From Chloranthus sessilifolius (Eukaryota; Streptophyta; Magnoliopsida; Chloranthales; Chloranthaceae), in assembly GCA_021018995.1 (NCBI GenBank), contig CM037593.1:19059810-19123809 (forward strand): a stretch of 64,000 nt of DNA, in the 5' to 3' direction. The notes beneath the pieces were generated by a model that made no database searches, had not been told where the DNA came from, and saw only the letters and a list, made by a program, of their open reading frames with translations. The position numbers and the translations under genes were made by a program. Of the stretch, positions 2,917 through 44,124 are shown piece by piece (position 1 is the first letter of the stretch; each line of letters starts with the position of its first letter).

Positions 2917-3204
2917 ATGGCGATGTGTTGTGGGCTGCCAATAATTTCTTCTGTCCACACAAAGATTTCTTCCTCTAACTCTGTTTACTTCAACAATGGT
3001 AGAAGAGAGTTGTTGAAGAAGAATAATAGTAGTAGAATTGTGGGCTTCAATAATAAATATAATAATAATAATTGTCGGTGCATGTTTGGGCTGGGGATGC
3101 CGGAGCTGGTGGTCATCGCCGGAGTTGCCGTCCTCGTTTTCGGTCCTAAGAAACTTCCAGAAGTCGGTCGGAGCATTGGTAAAACTGTCAAAAGCTTCCA
3201 ACAG
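2917..3204 (+). CDS. TATA: Thylakoid cpTat translocase subunit TATA/Tha4, exon 1
   Basis: Encodes residues 1-96 of the small Tat subunit that assembles with TatC/Hcf106 in the thylakoid membrane and moves folded twin-arginine proteins using the proton gradient. Residues 1 to about 54 are rich in Ser, Asn and basic residues and poor in acidic ones, as expected of a chloroplast transit peptide. The mature part begins near FGLGMPEL. The transmembrane helix is about 62-76 and carries the family's essential membrane Glu (E63). The hinge FGPKKLPE is at 75-82, followed by the amphipathic helix through GRSIGKTVKSFQQ. The ATG sits in AAGAAATGGC and is the first start after the promoter region. Exon 1 ends in phase 0 after CAG at a GTTTGT donor (3205). 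Without splicing the frame adds only VCFSF and stops. The closely related Hcf106/TatB is less likely because the complete protein is short (139 aa) and the membrane helix is TatA-like. Opposite-strand ORFs here are shadows. Confidence 0.95.
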
Positions 3205-3954
3205 GTTTGTTTTTCTTTTTAATTATTATTATTATTTTTTTTAATTTTCTTTTTTAAATTCGTTTTTGTGGGTTTTTAGTTCTGATGGATTGTTTTGATT
3301 TTGGGTTAAATTTGTTCTATGAATCAAACCCAATTTGATTCACTGGGATTTTTGTCTGGTTTCTTTGAAGGGGTGGTTTACTGAATCCTGTGGGATTTTT
3401 GTGAAGTTTTAGATTATCTGTTGATCTCATGAAGCAAGTGTTTTTTTTTTTCAATTGATTACTGTGGAGTTATTTATTTATTTATTTTTTATAGGTAAGC
3501 TGGAATTTAAATATTGGAATGATTATTATTATTATTATGGTTTTTGTTGCTATTGTTTGGCAACCCCTATAGTTGTTTAAGCTTCTTTCTAAAAACCTCA
3601 ACTTTTAGATAGGTTTATGCAATGGTTATATCCATAAATTCTTGCGAGCCATGAAAGCCAAGGATGAGCTCTTCTTGGATTTGAGTGACAAATGTCTTCA
3701 GTGGTGGTCATGAACCTCCCTCCCCAAATTCATGGATATAACATTTTCACTTTTTTTTTTTAAAATCTCAACTTGTTGATGTTGCTTCATTGATCGGTAA
3801 CTATTAGTTGGATTAGAGAAGAGCTGAACTGACAAAAGATGCATGCAAAACAGTTAGTTGGTTGGTTTTTAGGCAAGCCACGTTTTGAGGAAAAAGTTTA
3901 CACAAAGTAGGAAAAGTGTATATATATTCGTATCGATTTGGAGGTGGGCTATGA

Positions 3955-4468
3955 TAGGGTACCCGTTCTTATTCATTGTCCTTTCTCCTTTTATATTTGG
4001 AGTGCGGTGCTTAGTCTATTTCATGTGAGCTGGTGAAATCCATCTTCTGTAGCTAAGCTGATCGTTATGTGATGGCATGGGCCTTTCTCTGCCCATGGGC
4101 GAGTTCTCTGGCTCATGTCGCTTCTCGTGGTCTTTTGTGCTATTTGGATGGAGCACAACCAAAGGATTTTCCGTCGGCAACGTCGTGGGCCGGAGCTAGT
4201 TCTCATTCATGTCTCGGAGATGATTATCAGCTTGGCCATTGCTCATCAGGACTTCCGTGATCTTACTAGATCGCTTATTTTCCTTGACTGGACTGAGCTT
4301 CTTGACCCGGGATTTGGGCCCTAGGGCTTCTACCGTGTTTTGTCTTTTTGTTGTTCTTTTTTCATTTATTTCTTTCTTTTCTCCTTTTTGCTTGGTGGCT
4401 TGCTGCTTTGACGCTTCTTTGTAATTTTATTACCTTAATGAAATTACTTTACCAATAAAAAAAAAAAC
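3955..4468 (+). pseudogene. L1-type LINE 3' end with poly(A)
   Basis: 5'-truncated LINE fragment. In one frame (about 4115-4321) it reads LLVVFCAIWMEHNQRIFRRQ, the tail of the zf-RVT region found at the end of plant L1 ORF2 (compare CAIWLERNNMIFRRK in the LINE at 14861-22068). A ~130-bp T-rich 3' UTR and an 11-A tail (4457-4467) follow. The other reading frames are broken. The 5' target duplication was not found. Confidence 0.75.
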
Positions 4469-4499
4469 TCTAAGAAGTAAAACATGCATCTTGAATGAA

Positions 4500-5390
4500 T
4501 ATAATGAGAGTATCTAAGACATGTATGAAAGAGAGATAGCTAGTGTAAGGATCATGTTTGGAGAGATGACTGAATTCCCGATTAGGGTCGTGTTGCATCA
4601 AGGACTGTGTTGCATCGAGCGTTTGCGTGAAGACCTTATTTATTATAGTTGTGGATGAATTGATAGTAGAAACACAAGTGGAATATCCACAGTGTATATT
4701 GTTTGTTGATGATGTGATGCTAATTGGCCAAACAAGAAAAGTAAATGATATATAACGATGGAGAAAGACTTTAGAGTTAAGGGGTTTGGAAATTAGCAGA
4801 ATGAAAACACAATATGTGGAGCATAAGTTTAGTTTATAGAAAAGTAGGGAGAACGATTTGGTCCAAATAGAAAACCATTTAGTGCTAAATGTAGTTACAA
4901 TTGATTGTGGGTTTGAGGACATCTCAGATAGTATCAATGTAGGGTGGGTGAGATAAAGAACGACGAGTGGTGTGTTGTGTGGCTACATGTGCCACTTCAA
5001 TTGAAGGGACATTTTTATAAAGCCACAATAAAATCTGCATTACTATATAGCGTAGAGTGTAGAGTCTTGGGCTATGAAGAAGTGAACAAAAGATTAGTAC
5101 ATGTAATTGAGATGAGTATGCTAGGGTGGATACATGAATTAAGAATTAAGGTAGAATTAGTAGGACATAATAATAAGTTTATGGGCGGCCCTAATAAAAG
5201 AGAGCATTAAGGAATCTCATTTGAGATGATTTGGACATGTCCATCGAAGACTTGAAACAACCCTTATATGAAAGATTGAAACGATACAAGTGAAAGAAAG
5301 TGGGAGAAAGGGAGGGCCAAGAAGGATATGGAGGGAAGTAGTGAGAAGTGACATGAAGTATTGCAGAGTGATAGAGTTTAGCCCTAAAAG
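4500..5390 (+). pseudogene. RTE-clade LINE reverse-transcriptase remnant
   Basis: Broken frames on the plus strand carry the layout of plant RTE reverse transcriptase. In order: an EFPIRVG.HQG-like block (about 4565-4600), a VLFVDDV-like catalytic block (about 4695-4720), then YSVECRVLG (5047-5075), the MSMLGWIHE block (5113-5140), and 'LRWFGHVHRR'-like sequence near 5220-5250 in another frame. Numerous stops and shifts make it non-functional. Assignment to RTE rather than L1 rests on the motif order and the SE/CWA...M.MLRWM-type block. Confidence 0.6.
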
Positions 5391-5555
5391 GAAATTAATT
5401 CTCTCTCTCTCATGCGCATAAAGGTTTTCTTGATCATCACGCTCCCTTTTCGCCTTTTCTTTTTATTGAAAGAGGCTCTCACTCTAATCGAGAGAGGTTA
5501 CATCTCTCTCAATTTGGGGAAATGTTGTGGTTGAAGAGAGATGTCCGCACACAAA

Positions 5556-5618
<63 letters not shown>
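5556..5618. repeat. (CA)n/(TA)n compound microsatellite
   Basis: About 40 bp of CA repeat running directly into about 20 bp of TA repeat. The flanking 5400-5410 is a short CT repeat. Confidence 0.95.
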
Positions 5619-5770
5619 GGGTAATGATAACCAAACATTAATTGGTTACTTGAGTTGTGATTGGTTCATGTAAATTTTCATCTTTTGAAAAGTGAAAAGG
5701 TGGTTATTGTAGGTCAATCACAATTCAAGTAACCAAAGGTTGTTAGTCACTCGAGTGAGGCGAACATTAT
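5619..5770. mobile_element. Small foldback MITE between two microsatellites
   Basis: Left arm 'ataaccaaac..ttggttacttgagttgtgattgg' pairs with right arm 'caatcacaattcaagtaaccaaaggttgttag'. Total ~150 bp, bordered on both sides by TA repeats, a common insertion setting for Stowaway/Tourist-like MITEs. Class not determined. Confidence 0.55.

Positions 5771-5772
<2 letters not shown>

Positions 5773-5821
<49 letters not shown>
5773..5821. repeat. (TA)24 microsatellite
   Basis: Uninterrupted TA repeat of 48-49 bp, followed by imperfect CATA repeats to about 5850. The stretch 5850-6560 has no recognised gene or element. Confidence 0.95.
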
Positions 5822-5823
<2 letters not shown>

Positions 5824-6624
5824 TACACACACGCATACATACATACATACATGACTGGTTCAAACCGGTCCAACCACTTGTCTAGCTGTTTTGGGCCAGA
5901 TCGGCTTCCTTTACAGTTTAAGCTTCAATCTGGTTTTCAAAACACATAATTCTCGGCCGTAGAATGATTGTATCTAACCATTCGTGGCCCTAGGCCATTT
6001 AGAAAGGTGCTTAGTATTGTGTTCGTAGAGTAGAGAAATTGGCTTCTTGGGGTCCGGTTTCTTATGTCGTAGTCCATATTCTTATGCATTGTTACCTTTG
6101 ATAGAGCTCACTAATATATGTTTAAGATTAATTCAACAGAGCTTCTAATTAACCTCTATGGATATCTCCAATATGTTTAGCTAGGGTAAAAACATCAATC
6201 ATGTTATAGTAATAGAAAGTCCCAGACAAAGTCCTTGTACATCAAATTAATAAAGCGTCTACCGTACATCACCCACAAAAAAAAGAAGGCACCAACTTAT
6301 TTGGCATATATGTCTCGTCTTTTGTTATCAATGAAAAATATGGAAGGAACATCAGCTAGCTATCTCCACAGCAGATCCTCTGAGCTGCAGAAAGTGATTG
6401 GATGCTTTATTTCATCAGGATGGAATGAGCTACAACGTCTCGTGCTGAAAGTTGCTATGATTTTGGCATTCAATGTTTTTTTTTTTTTTTCAGGGTGAAG
6501 TGATTGCCAGCCAACCAGTCCTCATATGGATGTGTGATATCTGCTGCTACAGAGTTACTTGAAGATAGATTCCGATGATAGTAGCCAAAATGACCCTGAT
6601 ATAATTAATGCATGAGGGCAAGTA

Positions 6625-6845
6625 TGGACATAAAATATAATTAGAGCAGATAAATGGTGCTGCCACTAAGCGAAAATATCCAAGTACGGCCATCCTATGT
6701 TATTTATATAGTGAACAATTTGCCTCACATCATGATCATAATGTCGGGCATATTGTTCCATATAAATAACATAGAATGGTCGTACTGTGGATATTTTCAC
6801 ATAGTGGCTACACAATTTATCTAATCTAAATGGATTTTGTGTCCA
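6625..6845. mobile_element. Foldback MITE, tandem copy 1
   Basis: The palindrome spans the whole 221 bp. Left end TGGACATAAAAT is mirrored by ATTTTGTGTCCA, and the inner arm 'gccactaagcgaaaatatcc' by 'ggatattttcacatagtggc'. It lies in a 288-bp direct repeat (6563-6850 / 6851-7135), so the MITE was copied with its flank. Short ORFs over it are artefacts. Confidence 0.75.
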
Positions 6846-6911
6846 ATTTAAGATAAATTCCGATGATATTAGCCAAATGACCCTGCTATAATTAATGCAT
6901 GAGGGCGGGCA

Positions 6912-7131
6912 TGGACATAAAATCTCATTAGACCAGATAAATGGTGCTGCCACTAAGCGAAAATATCCAAAGTAGGGTCATCCTATGCTATTTATAGTGA
7001 ACAATATCCCTCACATCATGATCATGATGTGGGGCATATTGTTCTCTATAAATAACATAGAATGGTCGTACTTTGGATATTTTCCCATAGTGGCTACATG
7101 ATTTATCTAATGTAATTGGATTTTGTCTCCA
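6912..7131. mobile_element. Foldback MITE, tandem copy 2
   Basis: Same foldback element as 6625-6845, with a few substitutions and small indels, in the second 288-bp unit. The shared flank 'gataaattccgatgata..agccaaa.tgaccctg' proves a segmental duplication, not two independent insertions. Confidence 0.75.
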
Positions 7132-7350
7132 ATTTTCCCTTGAGTCATTCGCGTTGATCTAGAAGAGTGCTTATATCCAATGTTTTGGACACCTTAAACT
7201 TTTGGTGTTCCATATCTGAAACACCTTCTGTTGGAACCAACCATAGTGTCAAAATATTCTTATTACGTATCTCTTGATCTTATTTTTATCTAGTGAGAGC
7301 AGAATTTCATCAAGAAAATGACAACTAGAGGAAATATCCTATGAAAGTCC

Positions 7351-9599
7351 TGTTATATATATTAGTGTAGTAATATATATTTATTGTTTCAAATTAAGTT
7401 TATAATTATCATTATATATTAATAATAATTCAATGGCAAACTTGTAAATATTATTTTCTCTCCAAAAAAGTGTCTTTTCAGATTTTGATTGATCTTTTTA
7501 CCGTTAGTTGAAAAGACACAAGTCTGACATCTCTTTACCGTAAATCTAAAAAACACAAGTGAAATCAATTTGTCTTTGTCGTTATCTGAAAAGACACAAA
7601 TCTGAAATCTCTTCACCGTCATCTGAAAAGACACAATGCTTCGGATTTCTCTCTATAAATAGAGATAAGATCTTTGCTAGAAAGACACAAGACAACAGAA
7701 ATAATAATCTGTCTTATTTTCTTTATTTAAGAATCTTTTTGTATATCTGAAAATCTGTGTGACAAGTTCTTTTTCTAGAAAGTGCAAAATAACATATCTG
7801 AAATTGAAGATGCATGTACAAAGGTTTTTCTAGTCTCTAAATATTTTGATTTCAAGATGGCTGAGGATAAATCGATTCTTGAATAAGTTCAAGAATTATA
7901 GTTTATTGTCACTGAGATGAAAGTCTTATGTATTTAATGAAGTGTACTAAACCTGATATAACATTTATAGTAGGGATAATGAGTAGATTTATTAGCAATC
8001 CAAGGTCAAAATATTGGGAAGCTATCCTTAGAGTGTTGAGATATTTGAAGGGAACGATGAATTATAGTTTGCAATATAGTGGCATGCCTGAACTCTTTGA
8101 GGGATTCACTGATGCTACTTGAATTTTTTATTCATCTGATTCAAAATCTACAAGTGAATGAATTTTTACTTTGACAGGAGGAACATAATCGTGGGGGTCT
8201 AGCAAACAAACATGTCTGTCTGATTCAAATATGGAATCAAAATATATAGCATTGTCTACATGAGCAAAAGAGGCAGAGTGGCTTCGAAGCTTCATAAGGC
8301 ATTACTTTGATACAACATATATATGCTTTATTGTGATAATAAAGTTGTTTTACAAATTTCAGGTAATAAGAAATATAAAGGGAAATCAAGGCATATAGGC
8401 CTTAGATATAACATTATTCAGCAAATGTTGAGTGATGGGGTGATCGTGTTGGACTACATACCAACTTCTGAGATGCTTGCGGATTCACTTACAAAAGCAC
8501 TACTTAGAGATTCAGTATCGAGGGGGATGGTCCTAAGACCGATATCTTTAAAGGCACAGTAGTTGAACCTCAACTTAGTAGAGTTGGAGATCCAAATCCT
8601 AAGGTGAACAGGATAAGAAACTACTTCGTGACTTTTGAAAGTGCACATAGGTATGCTACCTATTGGCCATCCCTATGGTGTTAAATTTCGTGCACATCTT
8701 TTGTAATGTGAGAGTGTGAATTTAACTCTTAATGATTCTGTAGGCATTCATTTATTGGGTTAATAAAGTAGTTATAAGATCACTCATGACAGATTCACCT
8801 ATATGAGTATGGAGTAAAGCCGCTTGAACAGAGATTCAGTCTTCTATCTGAGATTCTCATGAAATCAGGATTTTAGCGCACGACTGTAAAGCGCAAGCCA
8901 TATGTCACTAATGATTTAGGTCATAGTAAGTGTATATGTAATTCTAGTTTTTAGACAGGTTTTAAGTTCAAAGTTATAAGCTACTTAAAATCCTTATAAA
9001 CTTTGAGTTGTATGTACTAGTCAAAGGTCCAAGCCAAACGGTACCTCTGATGATGCTTAGTATGATCGCTCTGATACACAATTTTTTTTATTTTAAAACA
9101 AGTGGGGAATGTTATATATATTAGTGTAATAATATATATTTTATTATTTCAAATTAAGTTTATAATTATCATTATATGTATTAATAATTATTCAATGGCA
9201 AACTTGTAAATATTATTTTCTCTCCAAAGAAGTGTCTTTTCAGATTTTGGTTTATCTTTTTACCGTTAGCTGAAAAGACACAAGTTTGACATCTCTTCAC
9301 TATAAATCTGGAAAAACACAAGTCTGAAATCTCTTCACCGTGAATCTGAAATGGCACAAGTGAAAGCAATTTATTTTTATCGTTATCTGAAAAGACACAA
9401 ATCTGAAATCTCTTCACCGTCATCTGAAAAGACACAATGGTTTGAATTTTTCTTTATAAATAGGGATAAGATCTTTGTTAGAAAGACTCGAGACACAACA
9501 AAAATAATAATCCTTTTCTCTTACGTTCTTATTTTCTTTATTTCAGAATATTTTTGTGTATCAGAAAATCTGTGGTAGGTTCTTTTTCTAGAAAGTGCA
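7351..9599 (+). mobile_element. Ty1/copia retrotransposon, internally deleted
   Basis: Two LTRs (7351-7786, 436 bp; 9110-9599, 490 bp) begin TGTTATATATATTAG and end AGAAAGTGCA. The right LTR has an extra ~38-bp unit of a short tandem repeat containing 'gacacaagtctgaaatctcttcacc'. A purine tract (AAGTGGGGAA) sits immediately before the right LTR, giving plus orientation. A gag start (ATGGCTGAGGATAAATCG, from 7857) is followed almost at once by the end of reverse transcriptase and RNase H, so protease, integrase and most of RT are missing. Flanking pentamers (AGTCC / ATCTA) do not match, so the element may be rearranged. Confidence 0.85.
7928..8560 (+). pseudogene. copia pol remnant (RT end and RNase H)
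   Basis: Remaining pol of the element at 7351-9599. The first block, 7928-8122, contains CTKPDITFIVGIMSRF and WEAILRVLRYLKGT, the copia RT-RNase H linker. A broken middle follows, then 8323-8562 with LYCDNKVVLQISGN (RNase H active-site Asp region), SRHIGLRYN and YIPTSEMLADSLTKAL at the C-terminus. In-frame stops around 8120 and 8260 disable it. The motifs resemble Tork/Ale-type copia families; lineage not resolved. Confidence 0.8.
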
Positions 9600-9848
9600 A
9601 TCTATAAAAGAGCATTCTTGGCAAAATCGGACTCTATTATATTTTGAAGACGGATTTGCTGGGAACCCAATCGCATTTTCGTTTATCCGACGGAGTGGGA
9701 GCGTTTATTGCCTTTAAGACAACCTAGTGAACCACGCGCCTCCGAGTTATTTTTAATACCATTTATTTCAACAATGAACCCCATCTATTTTATTTACAAA
9801 TACCATTTTCAACAAGTCCAACAATCTTCGGATTCAAAACAAGCATGT

Positions 9849-10878
9849 TGCTGCGGGACAAACGTTAAAACCCTAATTTGTGCGAGTTAAGATTAACTTC
9901 ATATTAAAGTGAATAGCAGAAATATTCGAAATCACCCAAACACATAAAATAATCCAATAGATTTAATTAAAACAAGTAGGTTAACTCAAATTTTAGCACT
10001 CACATGCATCGAAATTTCGCGATCTAGAAAAATGGCTCTGATGAAGGAACTCGAGTTTCGATCCAGTTTAGGGCACCAAGCGACAATTACGGTATCATCT
10101 CTTGACTCTCCTAGGATTTGAACAATTAAGGCTTGAAGGATTAACTCAATCAAAAGGGGAAGATCAAAAGATACTAATTAATAAGGGTTCGGGGTTTTGA
10201 TTTTATCAAGGAAATAAGGGAAAATATTACCTGACAATAATTAAAGAAAAGACAGAGTAGAAAGATAGAGTTCTAAGGCTATACACCAAGGGGTTCCGAG
10301 GCTTCACACTAAGGTTGTACGTTGATTTTGCACAAAGTCGTAAGAGAAATGAAGATTCACTCATCGAGTTTGAAAGATTCACTTTTTTGGTTTAAAACTC
10401 TTCACAAGTCTTCTAGGGTTTGTACAAAAGCAAACTCTCAATTTCATTTATTAATAATCTACTCTCTATTACAAAGTTTATAAGAACCTTATATAGTAGG
10501 CCTCAATAGAAGAAAACCCTAAAACAATAAAGCACGAAAATGACAAGTTTGTCCAAGAAAATTAAAATTTCGTCTTTTGGCGGACCTGACTTACGCGTTA
10601 AATCGATCGATCGATTCTAGAATCGATCAATCGATTTATAAATTTATAAATGGCTCAAAGTATCTGTCCACAATCGATCGATTGAAAGTTTGGATTCGAT
10701 CGATCGACTGAGAAGAATAAGTTCGCCAGAAGTTTAAAAGCCACTGTCCTCAATCGATTGATTGAGTATCTGGGATCTATCAATCGACTAAAACACGCCC
10801 CAAATCTTCAATTTCTTCCGACACTAGAAAATCTTTTGTGGCCCAAATCCGACGCTCTCATTCTTGATGTCCCCATCA
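9849..10878 (-). repeat. Gypsy element 3, LTR
   Basis: On the minus strand it begins TGATGGGGACATC and ends near GTCCCGCAGCA, the same LTR ends as the other gypsy LTRs in the window. It contains the CGATCGATCGATT repeats also seen at 31240-31400 and 40650-40830. The adjacent polypurine tract on the minus strand is AAGGAGAAT (10879 onward), marking this as the 3' LTR of an antisense element. Confidence 0.75.
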
Positions 10879-11880
10879 ATTCTCCTTGGGTGGGAGAACT
10901 CGTCTCGGATGAGTTGTAGAGCCCATGCATAATACACTTTGGGTGCTCAGCTCCCGGTTTGTCTTTTCATGCTGTGAGATATGCATGACGCTTGCCCGCA
11001 TTGATAGTGCAGTTTGGAAATTCTAGAAATTCCTCATTCAATCTTTTCTCATGTTGCACAGGTTGGATACGGGTTATGAACTGGGTAAATGGGTTTGGTT
11101 CGATTGCTTGGGAAACAAGGAACAGGTCAAAGGACATAGTTGCAAGACCTAAAATAGGTGTAAGATCTTCCACCGCAACTATCAGATGATTACCCTTGTC
11201 TAGAGGAAAATTTAGACTTCCATCATTACCTCTTTTCAAGATCGAAAAAGGCTTCATATGCTCGGAACTATCGCGAGTTAACACAAAATTGTTATTATTA
11301 AACTCATTAAACAAATTCATTGTGTTGGTGACATTCTGTGTATTTTCATCATTCAATAAAATATGATCGTTAATCTCATGCAAATTAGAATGCTGACACG
11401 TTCCTACCGACTATAACAACTCATGCGGTTTGGACACACTACCACCTCTTTCTTTGGGAATAAAAAACCCTCCTAACACAACCTATGGTTTTCACAGGAA
11501 TTTCATCCTCCTCATCACTTGACATTTCAATAGGTTCGTGCACTTCTTCTAACTCATTGCCCTCTTTCTCGGCATACTCCTGAATAATCAAGGTTTGGGC
11601 TTTACTGGGACATTGAGATACGAAGTGACCAAAGCCTTGACACTTATGACACTGTTGTGGTGCACGCCCAAAATTCTCAATCAGTTTTCCTTTACTCTTG
11701 TCAATCTGAGGAGGATTGACTAATGGTATCATTCACCCTTTCAGGAGGATTAGATCGAAAATTGAGATTAGAGGATTTAGATCGATCACTGACTGGAGCG
11801 TCTAGATACCTCTCTATTCTATCCATAGTCTTAGCGTTGATATCGACTAACTAATCTTCGCTCACTTGAGGGATACAAAA
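10879..11880 (-). pseudogene. Gypsy element 3, gag remnant
   Basis: On the minus strand 11732-11439 reads APQQCHKCQGFGHFVSQCPS, a CCHC zinc knuckle (C-x2-C-x4-H-x4-C) of gypsy Gag, followed by an acidic stretch. 11383-10967 is another open stretch of uncertain identity. Reverse transcriptase and integrase are absent between the Gag knuckle and the polypurine tract (~550 bp), so most of pol has been deleted. Confidence 0.65.
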
Positions 11881-11939
11881 TTTTTTCGAGTTCACTTTTC
11901 TAATTTGAAGTGATAATCCACGTCAACGTGTTCTGTTCT

Positions 11940-13190
11940 ATCGTGGTATACTGGATGTGCAACAATGTGAGGAGCCACTTCATTCTCACCATAAAGGGTC
12001 ATAGGTAGCTCTTTACATGAATCTTAGGATCTGTCAAGAGAAATCTGGTCCACATCCCTCCACATGGACATGGCTATATACTCATCCTCTGTGCTGGAAT
12101 TAGATAGGAGATGCTTTTTTTACTTTTTCATGTGACTAGATAGCCTCCAAGGACAGTGCGGTAATCAGTGGTGGACCTCCTATCACTTTGGGATCCATCC
12201 TAATCAGCATTAGTAAAAATTTCAACACGACATGACCATGATCACTGTATAATAAGCCTTTGCTTCGATTGCCCTTCAAGTATTGTAGGAATTTATACAC
12301 AACATGCAGATGAATAGTCTGAGGTGAGTGTATGTGCTGGTTCACTACACTAACAATATAGGCAATGTCAGGACGTGGTAGTGAGATATATGAGCTTTTC
12401 TACAAGCTTTTGATACATGCCAGAATCCTTAAGAGGTTCACCATCTTCTGCATTAATTCTATGATTTTAATCCATAGGAGAGTCAAGGCTAGCACCCTAA
12501 CATTCCCATGCTTGTTTTAGAACATCAAGTGTATACTTTCTCTGGAAATACCTTCGATCTGGCAACCTCAATTCCAAGAAAGTATTTTAAAGGGCCTAAA
12601 TCCTTAGTATCAAACATTCAACTCATCACATTCATGTGCTATTTAAGCCTCATAATTTCATCATCATCTCGAGTGACAATGATTTCATCCATATAAACAA
12701 TTACTATAATGAGCTGAACGTCCCGTTTCACAAATAAGGTGTGATCATAATTGCTCCTATTATACCCAAACTTTACAATTGCATTGGTAAACTTTTTGAA
12801 CGTGCTCTTGGTGACTGATTCAATCCATATATTGCCTTTTTAAGTCGACATACTTGTCCCTTCTCCCTTTACCAATGAAGCCAGGAGGAAATGCTATGTA
12901 AACCTCCTCTTTAAGATCTCCATGGAAGAATGCATTCTTAACATCAAATTAATGGAGAGTTCATATCTTATGAGCACCAAGAGATAAGAGGAGACAAATA
13001 GAATTTAACTTAGCAACCGGGGCAAAGTAAAAGAAGGAAAAAGGTAGGTTACCGAGAGGAAAGTCTACCTGAAATTGTACATTTATAGGATGGTCATATT
13101 CCACACGCATTTCATGTTGCAACAAAGATTCTGCTTAGCCATTTAGAAAAGTACCTAAGTAACAGACTCAAAAGTAAAAAAAAAATAGAT
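11940..13190 (-). pseudogene. copia reverse transcriptase remnant
   Basis: Minus-strand frames, broken many times, carry copia RT features. They include a [17 protein letters not shown] block near 12950-12900, [13 protein letters not shown] around 12890-12855, VYMDEIIV near 12700-12670 (the YxDD-like catalytic region, degraded), then IAYIVSVVNQHIHSP around 12370-12310 and YKFLQYLKG (12285-12262). No LTR of its own is seen. It adjoins the gypsy gag remnant and ends just before the LTR at 13214. Confidence 0.65.
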
Positions 13191-31424: not shown

Positions 31425-34400
31425 TCAGTTCTGCAAATTTGTGCAGTTCTTCTTTCGGACCACTTTCACGTTCTTCTTTCGCCTTCGATAAGTTATGGGC
31501 AGCTGCCTGAATCGGATGTCCCCATCAATTCTCATTGGGTTAGAAGGGTTCATCCCCGATGAATATTGGTTGTGATAGAGTTCCAGGAGATCCGGATCAA
31601 TCTGTTGAAATTCTTCTCTTGTTATCCACATATTCTCCGAATTGGCTTTTTCTTCCACTTGACCAGGTACTTCTGAAGTCCTCCTTCGTTGGTGGACACA
31701 ATCTGATCCTCCAAAATATCTTCAATGATCTCACGAGATGGTCGTGTAGGTGGAGGTAATGGCATGAGGAGAATGGTGGTAACATTAGAGGTGGAAGGTT
31801 CAAATGGGTTTGGCAAGATGTTTGAATGGCCATGGAATGGAACGAGATCCTCCACGTTGAAGGTCGTGCTAATCCCCAGTTCTGGTGGTAAATCTAGGAT
31901 GTAAGCGTTATAACCGACATGCTTTAAAATCCTATAAGGTTCAGTACCACGAGCTTGTAACTTCTTTACAACCACTTGAGGTAATCGCTCAGGCCTATTC
32001 CGAACCATCACAAAATCATCCTCGTGAAATCCTTTGATCCTTCTATGAGACTATGCAAAAATTTTGTATCTTTCATTGTTCATATTAATTCGTCTTGTAA
32101 TCTCAACATGCAATTCATGAATGTGATGTGCAAATGTAGATGCAAACTCTGACGACCTTTGATGAACTGACATCGGGATTAGGTCTACAGGTGTCCTAGG
32201 TTTATAACCATGCACGATTTGAAATGGACTCATACATGTGGTTTTATTAACCGAATTATTGTATGCAAACTCCGCTACAGGTAGGATGAAATCCCAATTC
32301 CTAATATGCTCACCTACTAGACACCGTAACAAATTACCTAAACTGCGATTTACAACCTCGGTTTGCCCATCAGTTTGGGGGTGGTATGCAGACGAAAACT
32401 AAAGCCTGGTCCCCATTTTGTGCCACAGTATCTTCCAAAAGTAACAAACTTGACATTCCGATCAGACACTATAGTTTTAGGTAAACCGTGCAGACGAATA
32501 ACCTCATTAAAGAAAAGTGTAGCAATGTTACTTGCATCTGAGGTCTTCGAACACGCGATGAAGTGAGCCATTTTTGAAAAACGGTCAACGATGATGAACA
32601 CCGAATCATGCTTGCGGAGGGTCTTAGAAAGGCCTAACACAAAGTCCATAGAGAGATCTTATCACGGGGTGTGTGGCATAGGTAAAGGTGTAAATAACCA
32701 GGTGTTTTGCCTTTGTTTTGCCAGTTGGCAAACACGATACTGGTTGATGATTTTGACAACATCTCAGGTGAGATTGGGCTAATAAAGTCAGTCTTCAACC
32801 AATGCAACAGTCTTGTTGCGACCGAAGTGGCCGGAAACCCCTCCAGCGTGTATTTCCCAAACAAGAAAGTCTCGTAGAGGAGTGCGGGGAATACACAAGC
32901 GGTTTTTTAAGAACAAATACCCATCCTGTAGGGTATATTTACTCTCTCACAAACTGTTCACTCAGAAGTGAGGGGTACTCTTCTCCAAAATTCGGACATG
33001 TAGGATAATCTTCTACGAGACGATTGAATCTGGTCACCTCAACACTTAATGAGTGTAATGTCGCAACTTTGCAGCTTAGTGCGTCAGCAGCTCGATTCTC
33101 TACACCAGCCTTATGTTTTAGCACAAAGGTGAATCCTTGAAGTTGCTCAACCCATTTCGCATGTCGCGGGTTTAACTTCTTTTGGGAACTCAAAAATCTA
33201 AGGGCATCATGATCAAAGAACAAGACAAATTTATGTGATAGCAAATAGTGTTTCCAATATTTGAGAGATTGCACTACCGTATAAAATTCTTTATTCTAGG
33301 TAAAATATTTTTGCCTAGCCCCATTTAACTTCTCACTGAAATAAGTTATCGGATGACCCTCTTGGCTCAACATTCCTCCAATACCTACATCTGATGCGTC
33401 ACACGCTACTTCAAAGACCTTAGAAAAGGCAAGAAGGCACATGACAGGAGCTTCCGTCATTCGGGACTTAATATCCTTAAAGGCTTTTGCTGCAGCAGAT
33501 GCCCATTTAAACTCTCCCTTTTTTATACAATCGCTGATAGGGGATGTTACCTTACTGAAGTTACGGATGAACCGCCTGTAAAAAGTCGCTAACCCATGGA
33601 AGCTACAGACTTCGTGAATGTTTGCAGGTTCTGGCCATTCCACAATGTTTTGGAAATAACATTGGTACAATTCGACGATGATTCAACAAACTTTCTCACC
33701 ACACTTGGCTATGAGATAAAAGATGTTATTTTATTCCACTGCCAATCAGCACTCTCCTTAGATTGGGCTATAGCACATCTAACCACAAGAGCCCGTGAGG
33801 TATTACCCTCCTCAACGAGGTAGGAAATTTCCCTAAGACAAGCCACAATCCATTCCCCTGCAAAATCTTCCTCATCGCTAGGGAACGATTCAGGCTCATA
33901 GACCTCTTCATCTCCCTTATTTTGTTCATTCTCAATATCTTTGGTTATGAACAATTTTCGAGAGAGACATTGTGCTGCCAAATGTCCGATGCTATGACAC
34001 TTGTAACACTTGTTTTGACCACCACTCTTTGGTGGCCTTCAAGCAATCCCTTATCAACTCTGATAACTGGTGTGGCAATTGTAGTGGACCTAGCTGACGA
34101 GGTATTGGCATTGGGTCTTGACTCAGGATAGTCAGACCTATAATCGGGGCCCACTAGTATCGAATCGTTTGGTTTGAGGGGTATTGAGGTACATTCTAAC
34201 TCTTCGACTCTAAATAAACATTCATCTAAATCGGTAATGGGGTATGGAATGAGTTCCCTTTGTAGTTATGGGCGAAGGCCCATCCAAAATCGGGATAAGG
34301 TAACTCTTTCTGGCTCATCCACATTGGCTTGGGACATTAGGTCTTCGAATTTGTCAATGTATTCTGTGACCGGTGAATTCCCTTGACGCAAAGATTACCA

Positions 34401-34636
34401 CTGATCAAGAAGACGTTCATCATAAGAAAGATGAACATACTTCTCGTTTGGTTGGATCTTCATATCATCCCAAGTGGAAATGGGAAGAAGACCCTGAGAC
34501 TGCCTATAACACTCTAATGTCATCCAGTAAAGCCTAGCTTGACTCATTAGTTTGACCTTGACAAACCGGACCTTATGTTCCTCAAACATGACATACCGCT
34601 CGAAGTAGTTTTCCATGCAAGTCACCCACTCGAGAT
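31425..34636 (-). pseudogene. Gypsy 1 gag-pol remnant
   Basis: Right to left: Gag (34715-34395 region: LEWVTCMENYFERY, VKLMSQARLYWMTLE, YDERLLDQW). A CCHC knuckle sits near 34000-33960 (CYKCHSIGHLAAQC) and an acidic Gag tail at 33981-33709. The RT-RNase H linker and RNase H follow (33670-33296: FHGLATFYRRFIRNFSKV, FEVACDASDVGIGG; 33274-32939: LFFDHDALRFLSSQKKLN). The integrase zinc region is at 32864-32640, and its core at 32649-32350 ([24 protein letters not shown]) and 32332-32051. The chromodomain is in 32011-31622 (IEDILEDQIVSTNEGGLQKYLVKWKKK). Protease and the RT palm are missing. Multiple frameshifts; not functional. Confidence 0.88.
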
Positions 34637-34981
34637 CAAGGATCAAAATACCGGTTTTCCGGTATGTATCGTCCTGACCTCCAGGACGATACGTACTGGA
34701 TATCGGCCGATACATTCAATGTATCGGCGATACATTCAATGTATCGGTTTGATACATTGATTTATTTTATTTTTTTTCTAAAAAATCCCAAAAAATCAAG
34801 AAAAATAAATGTAATGATTTTTTATTTATTTTAACTTTTTTTAAAATTTATTTAAGCCTTAATTTGATGCATATTTCATAATTTTATCAATGCATAACCT
34901 AAATTTCATTGTATATAACTCATGATCAAAATTAAAAGGTATATTATACAAGAAAAACTTACTTTAAAGCCACATTGAATT

Positions 34982-37900
34982 TCATGGTGGTTCTGGGCCC
35001 TCATGATCATCATCGGTGCGTGAGCTTTTCTTATAATGTTGGCCATATTGATACCCAAGATCATATGTGCCCCCTTCAAACTGAGGCATTAGCGATGAAT
35101 ATGACTCAGTGTAATAGGTAAAGGTTGGTCCTCCAAAAATTTGACCAACGAAGTCATATGACTCGGGGTAGGGTGGTTGAGGCCGATAGTATGGGTTACT
35201 GGTTGCTGAATCTTCGGTATTTTGCAAACTAAATTCTCCGAAGCTAGAAGTCATATAAGCCACATCATCTTGTGGACCTTGTGGTGGTGGTGGTGGTGTT
35301 TGGTAAGATTCTGACTCTCTTCTTTTTTCAACCCCTCCACCTCTAAATGTAGGAGTGTCATACATTGTTACCGGCTCATCATCCCATGCGGCAATACCTT
35401 CATAAGAATAAGGATCAACACCATCCACTTCACCACTAGTGTCATCGTGGGTTTCATCGCCTCCATCATCACCCCCACTATCACCCCCATCATTGTCATT
35501 ATGACTATTGGGCTCCGTTTCGTCATTAGATCCAACCATTGGATGACGATTCAATCTTCTTTTCCGCCTCGGTGGTTGGGAAGTCTGCTCCTCCGCTGCT
35601 CTTTCAGCATTATCCGGCCATGCGGTGCCCTAGTATCCAACATTGGCCCTTCTCTCTCTTCGATTCCCTGATTCAAAGGGTCATCCTCCGTGAATATATA
35701 ATCCAACTGGATGAGATCAAAATATTTACTATCTGTAAGATAGAATACGATAGATGAATTAGATATGCCTTATCAATTAGATCAAATAAAAATTGTATGA
35801 ACTAAGACTTCATATAATTGCTTACCATGATTGGTCCTCTCCATATTTCTGACCGTTAATCGCATATTATAGTGGCAGTAGACTACTTTTTCCAATCATT
35901 TCATAGTTAGCCTATTCCTTGTCTTCGTATGAATGAGAGAAAAGGTGCTTCAATTCCGTTCACAGTTGAACGAGGAATATGTTTGCGATAAAACCCTCAT
36001 TACAACTTGCCTCAGTATTGGGCCATCACCTCCATAATGCATCCACCAATCAGTGAGTTTATCGTATTTGATTTGGGATTGCGCTAACGGGGTCCCAAAT
36101 GACCCATGTCTCTTACGAAACATGTCAATCTACAAAGATGGAATACAATAACTCATATATCAATATAATGTTCATATGACATTTGACTTAGTCATAAGGT
36201 ATGATTACTTACATCTCTGATGGCTTGACCTTAGTCGGCTAACTCAGGGAGCATTCATTGGATCACATTAAGCAAATCACTGTACACTTCATCAGACTCA
36301 CTTAACTCGAAGCGTCGCATATATTGGAAGGCCGGATTCAAGTAGTGTGCTATACATTTCATTAATATATGAAAATAATGAATAATATGAAAAATAATAA
36401 ATAAATAAAAATCACTACATAAGCAGTTTAACATGTTATACCTGCGGCATGCAAGTACTGATGGAATTGTGCATCCCTTCTCTTGTCGTTGATCGTCCAA
36501 TATCGTTTATATTTTATAAGGAATTTGATTTTTATAGCCAATTTTGCTTTATCCATCGACTCGTAAACATACCCCATCGGTGGTTTTTCATCACCATCCA
36601 CCAACCTCAACACTTGAACCAACGAGATAGTAATGACAATCATGTGGTCAACATCTGCCCAAAATTGGGGGCTGTAGATCAGGTTAGCAACTTTATTGTA
36701 AGCAGGTCTCTTTGATCGTGGGAGTTCTAACTCATGTTTTCTCCCTTCTTCGGAGTTGACCATGCTTTTCAGCTCACGCCTATATCTAGTTAAACTTTGT
36801 AGGGCTAGAAATTGTGTAGCAATTGTGTAATCGCAGGCCGGAGCAGCTCGTTCTTGGTGAAGTCTCTCATCAAATTCACCAACTTGTCACTGTTGTATAG
36901 GTAGGAAGTAATCGTTCTTCCCTTCTGAATAATTGTCTGTGCCTTGCTTCTCTTTCCCAAATCCTCAAGAATGAGGTCCACGCAATGAGCGACACACGGA
37001 GTCCAGTACAAGTGACGTCTCTTCAACATTAACTGTCTTCCTGTGGTTTTGTAATTAACAGTATTGTCTGTTACCACATGCACAACTTGGTGCTCTCCAA
37101 CACCTTCAACTACTTTATCCATTAGATGAAAGAGGTAATCAGCCGTCTTCGCATGTTTATAAGCATCAACTGATTTTAGAAATACTGTCCCAGCATTGCA
37201 GTAGACTAAAAAGTTTATCAAACTCTTCCTTGTGGGACTGGTCCATCCATCGCACATAATTGTGCAACCTCTCTCATTCCATACTTCCTCAAAACTGTTC
37301 ACATAAGCTTCTATCTCCTTGTACTCATCATCTAATAAAGGCCCAGATACCTCGTATGCAGAAGGCTTTTTGACTCCTAGACCAGCTTCTGCACTTGTAT
37401 CAATTATACTTTTGAAGTACGACGACTCCACAACTTGACTCGGAATGTGATTGTATATTACGAACTTTGCAATCGATTTTCCAAGCCTCTTTCCCCATTT
37501 TTTCAGTGAAATTGTACTCAATTTACTTTGCTTGGAGCTTTCTGTCTGATACATAAACGGATCCATGGGACCTGTAGTAGACAGCCTGGTCTCCCTCACT
37601 GATGCTGACCTATGCAACCCGACAGTCTCATGAATATCCTTATCATCATCAACATGTGGCCTATGACTAGATCTACCACTAGCAACAAGCATGGATGGGC
37701 CCCTCAAGCTGGATCGAAACCGATAATCGGCTTCTTGATCTCGTCGTTGTCGTGCTTCTCTAGCACTGTCCCTCATGACTCTAGCTGTCACAACATCCTC
37801 ATCTTCATCCTCATCATCCCCAGGTCCAGGTTCAGGAAACTTCGGATCTCCCCTCCTTATTCTCATATATTTCTCTAACTCGGTCGGCTTCTTTCTTTTA

Positions 37901-38109
37901 GCCGACTGTAAACTGGCTCTAACATCTTTCACCTCTTTGAGTATATTAGGACACCATTTTGTCTCTCCCTTAACGTGAGCCAAATGCTCCTTCAATCGTA
38001 TGATACCTCATCTTAGTAATTTTTTCCCACAAAGCTTGCATTGCATTTGGAGTCTATCACCATCTATTGTTGTGCTGTATTGCCATGCTGGATCTGATGA
38101 TCGTACCAT
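34982..38109 (-). pseudogene. hAT transposase (BED, DUF659, dimerisation domain)
   Basis: Minus-strand gene starting MVRSSDPAWQYSTTIDGD (ATG at 38109). A BED zinc finger follows (CKLCGKKLL..., RLKEHLAHVKGE) with an in-frame TGA at 38008-38010, 33 codons in. 37995-36805 is a ~396-codon frame with DUF659 (IMCDGWTSPTRKSLINF with catalytic Asp; VVHVVTDNTVNYKTTG with the second Asp; WTPCVAHCVDLILEDLGK). A one-base shift near 36825 changes frame to ATQFLALQSLTRYRREL and 36763-36428. A 92-bp GT-AG intron is likely at 36350-36441. The dimerisation region (WWMHYGGDGPILRQVVMRVLSQT; CERNWSTFSLIHT in shifted frame) lies near 36060-35910. The tail to 34982 has a PRRKRR basic cluster and an acidic, Pro/Tyr-rich C-terminus. 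One stop and about two shifts suggest recent inactivation. Confidence 0.88.
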
Positions 38110-38149
38110 ATTTATTTCACCTGTATGCATGAACAAACGATTGGATTAA

Positions 38150-38745
38150 ATTAAAACATTTAGATTACACTTGAAAATAAAATTTATTTGATATTATTCT
38201 AATTTTAAAAAAATTTATATTACATTTGAAAAATTATTTGATATTATTCTTATTTTTAAAATATTAGATTATATTTTACCAAATTTATTTCATATTATTC
38301 TTATTTTTAAAATTTTATTTGATATTATTCTTATTTTTAAAAATTTATTTGATATTATTCTTATTTTTAAAATATTAGATTATATTATTCTTATTTTTAA
38401 AAATTTATTTGATATTATTCTTATTTTTAAAATATTAGATTATATTTTATCAAATTTATTTTATATTATTCTAGTTTTTGAAAATTAATTTGATATTATT
38501 CTTTTTTTTTAAATATTAGATTATATTTTACCATATTTATTTCATATTATTCTAAAAATATTGAAAATATTTGAAAATAATATTTAGCTGATATTATTCT
38601 AATTTTGAAAATATTGCTGTATTAGAAAATCATATTATTCTAATTTTTAAAATATTTGAAAATCATATTAATTTAAAATTGATATGTCACATGCATCATA
38701 TTTATTTGAAAATCATATTATTCTAATTTTTAAAATATTTGAAAA
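38150..38745. repeat. AT-rich tandem repeats in hAT 5' region
   Basis: Repeated variants of 'gatattattcttatttttaaaa' and 'atattagattatattttacc', roughly 20-60-bp periodicity, degenerate. Lies in a presumed intron of the hAT transposase gene between the BED exon and the 5' end. Confidence 0.75.
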
Positions 38746-38754
38746 TCATATTTA

Positions 38755-39135
38755 TTTGAAATGGATGTGTCACATGCATCATGGGCTATGTGTGACTTGT
38801 GTAATTGATGTGTCACATACCCCATGACACATGCGACAGATGTGACACATGTGTAATTGATGTGTCATGGGGTATGTGTCACATGTGTGATACATGTGAC
38901 ACATCAATTACATATGTCGCGACACCTGTGTCACATACCCCATGCCACATGTGACACTGTCACATGTGTAACACATGTGATACATCAATTACATGTGTCG
39001 CGACACCTGCGTTACATGTGTTGTGTTATGGGGTATGTGTCACCTATGTCACATGAGTTTGATCAACGTTTGACCCATGGTCACGACACATCACACGTGA
39101 CATGTGTCACATGTGTCACATGTGCCGCGACACAT
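38755..39135. repeat. Palindromic ACATGTGACAC/GTGTCACATGT array
   Basis: About 380 bp packed with inverted and direct copies of CACATGTGACAC, interleaved with 'catcaattacatgtgtcgcgacac' and 'tgtgtcatggggtatgtgtcac' modules. It can form extensive hairpins. It lies in the hAT 5' region, where subterminal repeats in this superfamily bind transposase, but it is about 1 kb from the terminus. Not a CRISPR array: there are no unique spacers of constant length. Confidence 0.8.
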
Positions 39136-40961
39136 CACTTACGTTAAGTATTTATAAATAATTTTATAAAATAAATAAATTAAGTTTTTATATTTTAAAT
39201 AAATTAAGTTTTTTACATTTTAAATAAATTAAGTTTATAATAAATAAATTAATTTTAAAGGGTAATTAAGTTTTATATAATATAAAAATACTTAATTTAT
39301 TTTTAAAACTTAAATTACTAACATAATTTATTTTTAAGTATTATATAAAAACTTAATTTTGTTTAAAAAACCTAATTTACTAACACAAAAAAATTTCCTA
39401 GTTTTAAAAACAAATTTAAAAATGCAAGTAAATAGATCTACCCATATTTTTGATAGCTATAATGGGATCTATTCAAAATTTTAAGATCTACCATATTTTT
39501 GGATAGATCTACCCATAAATACGGTAGATCTAGTGAAAAAAAAATTAAAAACGCAAGTTATATGATGGTAAATAATACCTTCCCTTAAATATTCGGCGAA
39601 AATGTGAGTATGTGACTATCTGGTGGCTAAGATTTCAGTCTCCGGTGGCTAAGAAAGAAGAAATGCTAAAGAAAAATTTGCAGGTGACGAATGTTGCTTG
39701 AAAGAAGCCGAATGGGAGACAAAAAGCCCCCAAAATGGGCCTTAAATCGCGACTGAAAAGTAAAGGGGGGGCCAGGCCGATATTTTCAAATTAACGAACG
39801 ATACGGGCGATAATTTGCCCATATTGTCCAATAATTTGAAACTTTTTTTTTTTAAGTAATACAGATATTATCAGACGATACATTGAAATTATCGTCCAAT
39901 ACGGGCGATAAATTGCCCGTATCGAACGATAAATATCATAATTTTAAGGGGGTACGATACAAAGGCATTGTATCCTACTGCCGAGGTCCAAAGCCGAGAC
40001 GTATCGGACGATAGGTATTGGTATCGGATGATATTTTGACCCATGGCCGAGATTAATAGAAAATTTAATGCAAATAATTAAAATACCAATTTTCTAAACA
40101 GTTTATCACAGAAAATACTAAGATATTCAATTAAATGATTTTAGGTCTAGCCCGGAACAATGTTACTTTCGCGTACGTTTCCTATTGGATCTAGAAGATT
40201 AGGGTGTTTAGCGAGCGACTAGATCTCCGACAGTTGTAGGGTTTCGAACGAACTCGCAAGAGGGTTCTTTCGCTAGCATGCGAAAAGAAAGGCTAATATT
40301 AGGTTTTACTGGTGGAATGGATAGATTAAGGTTAGGTACTTACGTAACTCGTAGATCAGAGAAAATAGAAGAGGAAAAGTTAGCATCACACCAAACCGCA
40401 CGCGGGACAAAGAATTGCCATTCATTTGAGAGAATCACTCCCTCACAGAAAACTCAAACAAAGTTCTCAAAGTTGCATGAGGCAAAATTTCATTAACCAT
40501 TCATTAATTAAAGTTGTTTTTACAAGCCTTTAAATAGGCTAAGCAAACCATAACTCGAAATGAAAGAGTCCTAATAATTTAAAACACTAAAATGACAAAT
40601 TTTGCCAAAGAAAACCAAAATTCTGTCTTTTGGTGGAAATAACTTACGTGGTCGATCGATCGATCTTTTTAAGATTCGATCGATTGATTGAGAAATAATA
40701 AATTTCCTCGAAGCTCTGTCCACAATCGATCGATAGAAAGTTTGAAACCGATCGATCAATTGAGAAGAATAAGTTAGTTTGCCAAAAGACCTGTCCTCTG
40801 TCCTCAATCGATCGATCGGTTGCTTGTGGTCAATCGATCGACTAAAACACTCTTCAGTTCCGCGAATCTATGCAATTCTTCTTTCGGACCACTTTCACAT
40901 TCTTCTTTCACCTTCGATAGGTTACAGGCGGTTGCTTGAATCAGATGTCCCCGTCACTTCC

Positions 40962-43480
40962 CCTTAGTCTGCTCTCTCTATTATTTAAAGCATTCTCGTG
41001 ATTGAAATTTTGAGTTTCTTTCTAGTGCTTGCTCATTATTTTAATATTTCTTGCATCTTCACACTTGAATCTCCAATGTAGATTCTATGCTTATTATAAA
41101 TAAATAAAAATTGAAAATTTGAGCAATCGCTGCAAAATTATTTGTAACTTTACAAACAACAATTGCTCAATTTTTTTACTATAATAAGCGATGAGCAGGC
41201 TTATCTTAATTATCTTAATGTGATTGTGGGTCCTTGAAAATTGTGAGCCACATATACCCAACTCATAAATATTAAATGTAATTCACATATACCCAACTCG
41301 ATATATGTGAATGGTGTAGAGACTAGGATGAGGGTACCCAAAGGCTCCAGCTTGATCTTGACAGTATAAAAGTTTTGATTCTAAATGATTTATAGCCTCA
41401 CTTGAACCGAGAGCCTAGAGGCATTCTCGGTAAATGGCCACCCTCAGGAGCAAAATAGTAATTGAGTTTTATTCAGGTCAATTGAGGATTTGAAATCAAG
41501 AACTTCGTTAGAAATAAAATGTAAATATATATTATTAAAGTGACCTAATAAATTCATTATAAGTATCTGTAAGAGCAGATCAGTCAAACCATGTTCCACT
41601 TACTCAAACCATGTTCAACTTGGTCAAACTTAGTCAGCATAGTTCACTGATGACTTGGGGTTATGTGTCGATGTCATCGAATCATGACGAAACTTCAAGG
41701 GTTTCTCAAATACCTCACAATATTGTTGCATATGCTTTCGAAAGTCTGAAATAGTGAGTTATATCACTATGAAGGGCATCAGAGTGAAGAGATATGGCAA
41801 TCGAAGCGATTACAAAACAGTTGGTGTTAGATCGATGACCATTGATGTACATCGAAGCCTCCAATCAGATAAATAGGAATTAAAAAGCATTTATAACCCT
41901 AATAACTGCTATTGATGAATCATTATACACATTGAGGGCTCATTGTGTTTATTGGGGCATAAACCCTAAGTTTGACTGAGTATAACTCTCTTATGGTCAA
42001 CTTGTAAAACATAATCGATAACCAGGGTTTGTGTAGGTAATGATGTGTCTCAGCATTTGGCCCAAAAATGGTCAACCAAGGACTTTTTATGGAACCTTAA
42101 CCTGTTTTCCAAATTCATGTGCTGCTGCCATCCAGTTTATTAATGCATGATGTCTGCAACCTTTATAGTTGGCTCTGCTTCCCAGCCGGCAGTCCTTCCC
42201 TTCTCCCCTGGGCATATTTTGTCTACTTTCTTTACTTCATCAGCCAGCGTAATTGCCAATGCATTATTTTAAGCGCTTTCCACTGTATCCCTGGATTTCT
42301 TTCAGATGAGGAATGTTAGTTAATCCATGTGTAACAGAGTTCTCTTTCCTAAAGATTCAGCTCGAGTTCGAAACAGAACAATATTTTGGTTTATTACTAA
42401 TTACAATTTGACATAAGTCCTTTCTTCTAATTTGTCTATCCATGGAATTGGAATTCTTCAACCTTTTTCCCTTGTCTATAAATCTCTAATTACCTCCTCC
42501 ATAACTTTGGAACATTTCTATCCACTTCTTCTTGTCCCAATCCTTACTCAGAGGAGGCTTAATGATGTGTATGATGTGACTGGAAATGGTTGTGGTGGTC
42601 ATTTTGGTTTTCCTTCGATTCTTAACTCCTGAGTTGTGGAGTGGGACGGAGAAACTATGGGACTGTGTTATGAACAAGAGGTAAGGGGCCACTCCTTCCC
42701 GTTATTTGGCTCTTTCTTTGGTCCATTAGGAAGTTGGGCCAATATACTCGTCAGAGTTTTGGAGTGGCAATGGCTCACATGAAGGACTTCACCCACCCAA
42801 CATTTTTGTTTTGTTTTACATGAACTTATTCGCTAGGATGTGGCGATGGCCATTCTTTTGAAAGTGTGATAAGCTTTTGGATGAATTCTCTCTTTTGCAT
42901 ACCAATTGATGTACATACGGATAGGCAGGAGAAATACAAGTCATATATATAGCTGATTTTTTTCTTCGATAACTGAGATTTTTGTTTCGATTAGAAATGG
43001 AAGAAGTTTATGAATTATTAGATGTGTTGATGGTAAGGAAATGCGACTAATTGACATGAATGCCCAAGAGAGAGAAAAGAAACAAAAATATATGGCATTC
43101 ATGTTAAGTGGATGCTCTCAAGAAAAAGGTTTATTTGTTTATTTATTTATCAAATGTTAGTTATAAGCCATCATGCATTTTTTTCTTGTTTAAAAAAGGA
43201 AGTTCCTTCTGCTCTCATCTTTTGCTTCTCCTTAAGAGTTCCGAAAGGAGAAGTGAGAAGCAAAAGATGAGAGAAGAGAAGACATCTTAAAGGGTGCTGC
43301 CCTCTCTCTATCCTGGGGGGTGGGGTCCATCTTATCTGATATTAGTGAATGTAAGTGGATGTTTTCTGTCACAAATTTATTGCAACACGTTTTTTTTTTC
43401 TTTTTTTTTTTTTCTAGTTATTAACTCTACATTAAAATAATCGCTCTCTTGTTATTACCTATTGGGCGCCTGTATTAACA
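40962..43480. other. Unassigned 3' part of the giant intron
   Basis: No retrotransposon domain, terminal repeat or credible ORF. 41150-41600 and 41900-42700 are ordinary AT-rich sequence. A near-perfect inverted repeat 'ctcatcttttgcttctc' / 'gagaagcaaaagatgag' lies near 43214-43272 (possible small foldback). Short T-runs near 43390-43413. Confidence 0.6.
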
Positions 43481-43497
43481 CCCACTGAACATCAGAG

Positions 43498-43810
43498 AGC
43501 ACCTACACTAAAAACAATTTACTGCTTTGAATCAGCCAATGGAGACTGTTTTTCTCCCCAACCTTCCACATAAGGGATCTTGAGATGATGTGCGTACCAT
43601 CAGACGGTCAGTTTTTTATTCCACGTGGCACAAATCCAAGAACGTGATAAAAAAAAATCACGTGGCACACATCAGCTCAAATCTGATTTTCAAATCACTT
43701 CTTTGGGATGTGTGCCACGTGGAATAAAAAACTGACCGTCCGATGGTACGCCCATGATTTCAGGATCCCTTGTGTGGACGATATTTATGTTGTATGATTA
43801 CTGCAGTAAA
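43498..43810. mobile_element. Foldback MITE family A (best palindrome)
   Basis: Core 43574-43770 is a near-perfect palindrome: left 'gtaccatcagacggtcag', 'ttttttattccacgtggcac'; right 'gtgccacgtggaataaaaaa', 'ctgaccgtccgatggtac'. Outer arms carry the family A blocks 'gcacctacactaaaaacaat' and 'caatggagactgtttttctcc'. It sits ~180 bp upstream of the TATA exon 2 acceptor. Confidence 0.8.
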
Positions 43811-43992
43811 TCCCCATATGGCTCTGAAGCCTACATCGATTAATTATAACTTAGCAAAATTTATAACACGATCGATTGGTTTAAGCTATTGTGGTTATAT
43901 TTAAGTCCTTGAGGTTAGCTCCTTAATTTTGGGTTACTGATTTTTTTCTTTTATACTGCTAGTCTTGATCTCTGGATCCTTAATATTTGCAG

Positions 43993-44124
43993 GCAGCCAA
44001 GGAATTTGAGACAGAGTTGAGAAAACCTGAAGACACAACTGAATCCCCTGCAGAAGAGGAAACCACAGCGGTTAGTAAAGATGAGAAAAAAGATCTTGAA
44101 GTCTCAGGTGCAAAGGAGAGTTAA
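43993..44124 (+). CDS. TATA: TATA/Tha4, exon 2 (C-terminal)
   Basis: Completes the gene begun at 2917. The acceptor is TTTGCAG (ends 43992), preceded by a T-rich tract from about 43939. In phase 0 the first residues are AAKEFETELRKPEDTTES, which joins exon 1 to give SFQQ-AAKEFE. That junction lies inside the amphipathic helix and is conserved in plant Tha4 proteins as I know them. The remaining residues form an acidic Glu/Lys/Ser-rich stromal tail ending in AKES and TAA at 44122-44124. The joined product is 139 aa, close to the usual length of plant Tha4 precursors. No residues appear to be missing at the junction, so no intermediate exon is needed. This exon is too short to appear as a stand-alone ORF. 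Confidence 0.92.
   Translation, partial: AAKEFETELRKPEDTTESPAEEETTAVSKDEKKDLEVSGAKES

Follow-up and report, generated by a model that had tools for sequence, protein, structure and literature searches.

Long introns filled by transposable elements (TEs) are a described feature of Chloranthus. According to the available text of PMC8626473, introns of matched orthologues in Chloranthus spicatus average 3,681 bp as against 153 bp in Arabidopsis, LTRs are apparently the main contributor to this length, and expression drops once introns pass 40 kb. For C. sessilifolius, the accessible part of PMC8626421 reports that TEs accumulate in introns and that 8,187 genes are above 20 kb. Very long introns are also reported for Cycas (about 1.5 Mb, with the longest-intron gene being expressed; PMC9023351) and for giant sequoia (about 1.4 Mb; PMC7642918), but these are tens of times longer than the one described here. 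Rice OsIBM2 is reported to be needed for mRNA production through heterochromatic introns, and in the Arabidopsis ibm2 mutant transcripts end early in such introns (PMC7145194). In the literature searched for TATA/Tha4 gene structure, we found no publication on the TATA intron itself.

The gene described here lies in a 64-kb window of C10, the whole stretch of DNA that was analysed, and positions given without a prefix refer to this window. Its protein agrees with chloroplast TATA/Tha4 of the cpTat pathway in domain, in length and in the conserved block FGLGMPELVVIAGVAVLVFGPKKLPEVGRSIGKTVKSFQQAAKEFE, many of its near relatives carry the annotation 'TATA, chloroplastic', and we observed no notable difference between the proteins. 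Its intron is like the long introns reported in the available texts on C. spicatus and C. sessilifolius (PMC8626473, PMC8626421) in lineage, with the family very probably being shared, in its retrotransposon filler and in the exon structure that has been kept. It differs from the pattern given there in that it concerns a single named small gene at the 40-kb end of the range, and in that its filler is partly LINE, hAT-type and unclassified sequence.

Structure and identity of the TATA/Tha4 gene

Exon 1 (2917..3204, + strand) opens with an ATG, codes for 96 amino acids ending in SFQQ and is followed by the donor site CAG/GTTTGT. Exon 2 (43993..44124, + strand) follows the acceptor TTTGCAG/GCAGCC, starts with AAKEFE and codes for 43 amino acids plus a TAA stop. 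The intron between them (3205..43992, + strand) is of the GT-AG type, in phase 0, and 40,788 bp long. The CDS amounts to 288 + 132 = 420 bp, stop counted, and the joined product to 139 aa. The coordinates, the phase and the GT and AG sites agree base for base with the two-exon gene proposed in the preliminary description. The initial 100 nt of the intron are 66% T, and five branch-point-like YTNAY matches lie 9, 24, 39, 52 and 66 nt before its end, a motif so short that its occurrence is weak evidence.

When the joined 139-aa protein was compared with Pfam, TatA_B_E (PF02416) matched residues 59-109 with an E-value of 3e-21 and a score of 74.8 bits against a curated cut-off of 21, which places the protein in this family. 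The domain straddles the exon junction at residues 96/97, and the conserved amphipathic helix block is reconstituted there, as had been proposed. From what is known of TatA, we take exon 1 to encode an N-terminal region (a putative transit peptide), the transmembrane segment, the FGPKKLPE hinge and the start of the amphipathic helix, and exon 2 to encode the remaining helix and an acidic tail. An N-terminal extension, which varies among relatives, is present ahead of CRCMFGLG, and the product is likely to be targeted to the plastid.

Homologues numbered 804 at E 0.001 or better, and 120 of these were listed. The names among those 120 are TATA, TatA, TatA/B/E, generic Sec-independent translocase and hypothetical or uncharacterised protein; the label Hcf106 or TatB was absent from the names shown among them. 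Judged by the names of its nearest relatives, the protein is of the TATA type and not of the Hcf106/TatB type. The TatA_B_E match and these names together uphold the TATA/Tha4 identity given earlier. Across the exon junction, the block F[QRK]QAAKEFE is uninterrupted in 113 of the 120 listed homologues (804 found), and the other seven carry a one-residue variant of it, also without a gap. The pairing of the two exons is therefore not a matter of chance. The top match, P0003, is a transcript-derived protein of a related plant (source eukprot, with a Trinity transcript name). It shares 72 of the 95 residues aligned in exon 1, and 41 of the 43 in exon 2, with the C10 protein, and its alignment runs through the junction ungapped.

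A second TATA gene and the function of the C10 copy

The 2.17-Gb genome was searched with the joined protein, and the best seven candidates were scored. Six matches were obtained at E up to 1: exon 1 (E 1.2e-58) and exon 2 (E 3.3e-17) on C10, two matches on C1, a fragment on C4 (E 0.11) and a fragment on C15 (E 0.27) which contains a stop. No further exon-1-like or exon-2-like piece on C10 was present among the seven scored candidates. At C4:140374466-140374540, on the minus strand, profile positions 1-25 of TatA_B_E were also matched (E 5.9e-5); this partial match perhaps represents an Hcf106/TatB gene with its intron elsewhere.

A second, more compact TATA copy, which the preliminary description had suggested looking for, is the one on C1. 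Its exon 1 (138826512-138826841) ends in SFQQ as in the C10 copy, its exon 2 lies at 138836732-138836866, and its GT-AG intron of 9,890 bp interrupts the same codon in phase 0. The same intron position is hence found in a homologue whose intron is shorter, and since position and phase are identical in the two genes, the intron is older than the TATA duplication. The C10 intron is much the longer of the two (40,788 versus 9,890 bp), and the change in size is probably due to growth on C10 and not to shrinkage on C1. Comparison of the two introns gave no blastn match at E 1e-4 that would represent shared ancestral sequence and allow the original intron to be traced.

Nei-Gojobori estimates for the paralogues gave dN 0.29 and dS of about 1.8, which is near saturation, over the whole CDS of 138 codons. 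The corresponding values were dN 0.08 and dS 1.65 (also near saturation) over the 40 codons of the transmembrane and helix part of exon 1, and dN 0.21 in exon 2, where synonymous sites are saturated. Constraint acts on the coding sequence at both sides of the intron. The divergence of the paralogues is far older than the repeat pairs measured in the intron, so by itself it is no proof that constraint continued after the intron had grown. On this later period the close match of exon 2 with P0003 may be more informative. P0011, which also bears a Trinity name, is closer to the C1 copy, sharing 75.9% of aligned residues with it as against 58.0% with the C10 copy. Since P0003 matches the C10 copy and P0011 the C1 copy, each paralogue has a transcribed counterpart elsewhere.

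Based on these observations, we are confident that the C10 locus is a functional nuclear gene for a thylakoid Tat subunit, whose pre-duplication intron was enlarged to 40.8 kb by transposons. A single coding intron would have been in place before the duplication that produced the two TATA genes, and the C10 intron would have reached its present size as transposons inserted into it again and again over a long period. RNA polymerase II would read across the entire intron and the spliceosome would join 3204 to 43993, yielding a 139-aa preprotein; we infer from sequence that the gene is transcribed and spliced in this species. It had been suggested that the gene may be disrupted. This finds no support in the open exons, the agreement of exon 2 with P0003 or the presence of the intron in both paralogues, and the gene is very probably functional. 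The C10 copy may be expressed weakly compared with the one on C1, because expression in C. spicatus reportedly falls past 40 kb (available text of PMC8626473). With a second TATA gene on C1, the essentiality of the C10 copy is unproven.

It is improbable, in our estimate, that the C10 gene is undergoing silencing or has already lost its function, such that the polymerase stops or the transcript is polyadenylated within the TE-rich intron, a 101-aa product ending in SFQQVCFSF is made, and the C1 gene carries the function. An in-frame stop is indeed found at intron bases 16-18 and the genome does have a second TATA gene, and the premature ending reported for Arabidopsis ibm2 (PMC7145194) and the lower expression reported for C. 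spicatus above 40 kb (PMC8626473) are in line with this reading as far as those texts go. Against it, the reading frame is intact in both exons and exon 2 retains 41 of 43 residues relative to P0003, although, with K2P values of 0.05-0.11, the intronic repeat pairs are not young. We attach a similarly small probability to the giant intron serving as a brake or timer, with the C10 copy being slow, weak or under intronic-heterochromatin control and the C1 copy, with its four-fold shorter intron, supplying the bulk. If this were true, the paralogues would be divided by intron length and not by protein function. With a 40.8-kb intron in one copy and a 9.9-kb intron at the equivalent codon of the other, the two TATA genes of this genome make a neat pair in which to study the effect of intron length on the output of a small chloroplast gene. 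Finally, a misjoin that put exons 1 and 2 at their present spacing, a possibility raised earlier, is very improbable: an intron rich in repeats is a setting in which chimeric contigs can form, but the whole 64 kb are free of any N or ambiguous base, which excludes an N-padded scaffold join from 3205-43992, the two exons complete one domain in order, strand and phase, and no other partner for either exon was reported on C10 among the seven scored candidates.

Transposable elements in the intron and comparison with control genes

The intron had been described as filled with transposons, and it does contain a LINE, a hAT-type block and three pairs of LTR-like repeats. A weak LINE zf-RVT-like fragment lies at 3965..4231 in sense (+) orientation (tblastn E 1e-14, 31% identity), and the two scanned ORFs which overlap it gave no Pfam match. 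LTR-like direct repeat pair C spans 7351..9600 (7351-7787 and 9110-9600, K2P 0.073). A zinc-knuckle (gag-type) fragment at 11460..11657 is antisense (-) and matched zf-CCHC at 2.9e-4, with 21.2 bits against a cut-off of 20.8; by tblastn it matches the zinc-knuckle ORF at 33712-34038. The LINE core, also antisense (-), occupies 15075..18745 in several broken frames, with Pfam matches to Exo_endo_phos (1.8e-9) and zf-RVT (2.1e-20).

Gypsy element A (23666..26392, - strand) is shortened and of the chromodomain type; its repeats (23666-24012 and 26046-26392) are 347 bp long and 95.4% identical (K2P 0.048), and enclose RNase H, integrase and a chromodomain. Gypsy element B (30645..40960, - strand) is older, with repeats at 30645-31531 and 40045-40960 that are 86% identical (K2P 0.11), and has decayed to separate pieces at 31622-34038, which comprise a zinc knuckle under the cut-off, RNase H, integrase and SH3. 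Inside the repeats of element B lies a transposase fragment with DUF659 (36808..38007, - strand, PF04937 at 6.9e-56), which we take to belong to hAT. No convincing case of target-site duplications was found for the LTR-like pairs, nor of terminal inverted repeats for the hAT-type block. The ORF at 33712-34038 was considered as a Gypsy reverse transcriptase and rejected, being a zinc-knuckle ORF (zf-CCHC 0.0011, just under the cut-off); blocks matched by this ORF alone (11460-11657, C13 offset 48285 and C2 offset 16883) are therefore zinc-knuckle-like and weaker evidence of Gypsy. Self-comparison revealed a MITE-like fold-back at 43565..43778, about 215 bp upstream of the exon-2 acceptor, which has relatives near 45521-45752, 53802-54039 and 57749-58014. 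In addition, positions 6559-7135 hold a 286-bp unit in two tandem copies (89%), which are themselves palindromic.

Four assigned blocks span 18,964 of the 40,788 bp, so that the extra length consists of TEs over 46% of the intron, and the remaining 54% is without assignment. Since the repeat ends are alignment ends and target-site duplications were not found, the ages of the repeat pairs are rough; at 1.3e-8, the substitution rate for grasses, they come to 1.9 (A), 2.8 (C) and 4.2 My (B). At 1.51e-9, the rate applied in the available text of PMC8626473, the same rough ages become 16, 24 and 36 My.

As a control for intron length we used glycogen/starch phosphorylase (PF00343), which gave 44 genome matches, and measured two of the genes, one each on C13 and C2. 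The 18 gaps were taken between the ends of profile matches and hence approximate intron lengths. For 10 of them, the profile matches on the two sides are contiguous or overlapping in profile position, so that each gap corresponds approximately to one intron; three of these are 9.7, 12.8 and 15.9 kb long and seven measure 0.2-1.7 kb. The other eight reach 26.4 kb, and some of them may conceal unmatched exons. The 40.8-kb TATA intron exceeds every measured control gap, including that maximum with its possible hidden exon. It is bigger than any control, yet of the same kind.

The preliminary description had called this a striking case of intron gigantism. The size itself stands, with no control reaching 40.8 kb, but 'striking' is overstated, since TE-driven long introns are prevalent in Chloranthales according to the published texts available (PMC8626473, PMC8626421) and three introns of the two control genes measure 9.7-15.9 kb. 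The TATA intron is an ordinary case of the known TE-driven expansion in Chloranthaceae. As a discovery it is one further instance of what has been published for this family, and it is for this reason a sound annotation of modest interest.

Antisense bias of the intronic TEs was considered as a mechanism and dropped, as the controls show no consistent bias. The survey used 11 ORFs of the window as queries, which miss other kinds of TE, and blocks were grouped by eye. The C10 intron has six TE-like coding blocks, five of them antisense; if the hAT block is left out, the figure is four of five. Retroelement-like blocks in the C13 phosphorylase gene are antisense in five cases and sense in three, with two hAT blocks in sense orientation, and one C2 phosphorylase gene has none antisense and two sense. 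None of the 11 queries matched the other C2 phosphorylase gene or the C1 TATA stretch.

Other sequences in the intron and its flanks

The intron contains 203 ORFs of 60 aa or more, of which 142 were scanned against Pfam (136 together and 6 singly). No host-gene domain was found in these 142; the matches were to retroelement or DUF659 domains and to zinc knuckles. Among the flanking ORFs of the same minimum length, 61 of 83 were scanned and gave just LINE-type domains and DUF4283. Nothing was found in the window by Rfam at gathering thresholds or by a tRNA scan. Downstream of the gene, LINE-type stretches lie at 48400-52141 on the minus strand (RVT_1, endonuclease-like and DUF4283 pieces) and at 60079-61859 on the plus strand (zf-RVT and RVT_3 pieces). 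A near-perfect tandem duplication (607 bp aligned, 99.8%), with a fold-back in each copy, occupies 57759-58963, and positions 63623-63716 form a perfect (TA)47 microsatellite. Elsewhere in the genome, we noticed that plastid matK has a nuclear copy on C2, with an open frame of 433 aa. This copy is 96% identical to a Chloranthus cluster and 87% to Hedyosmum, and membership of the plant in Chloranthaceae is very likely. MatK_N gave 30 genome matches, many of them containing stops, which indicates repeated plastid-to-nucleus transfer.
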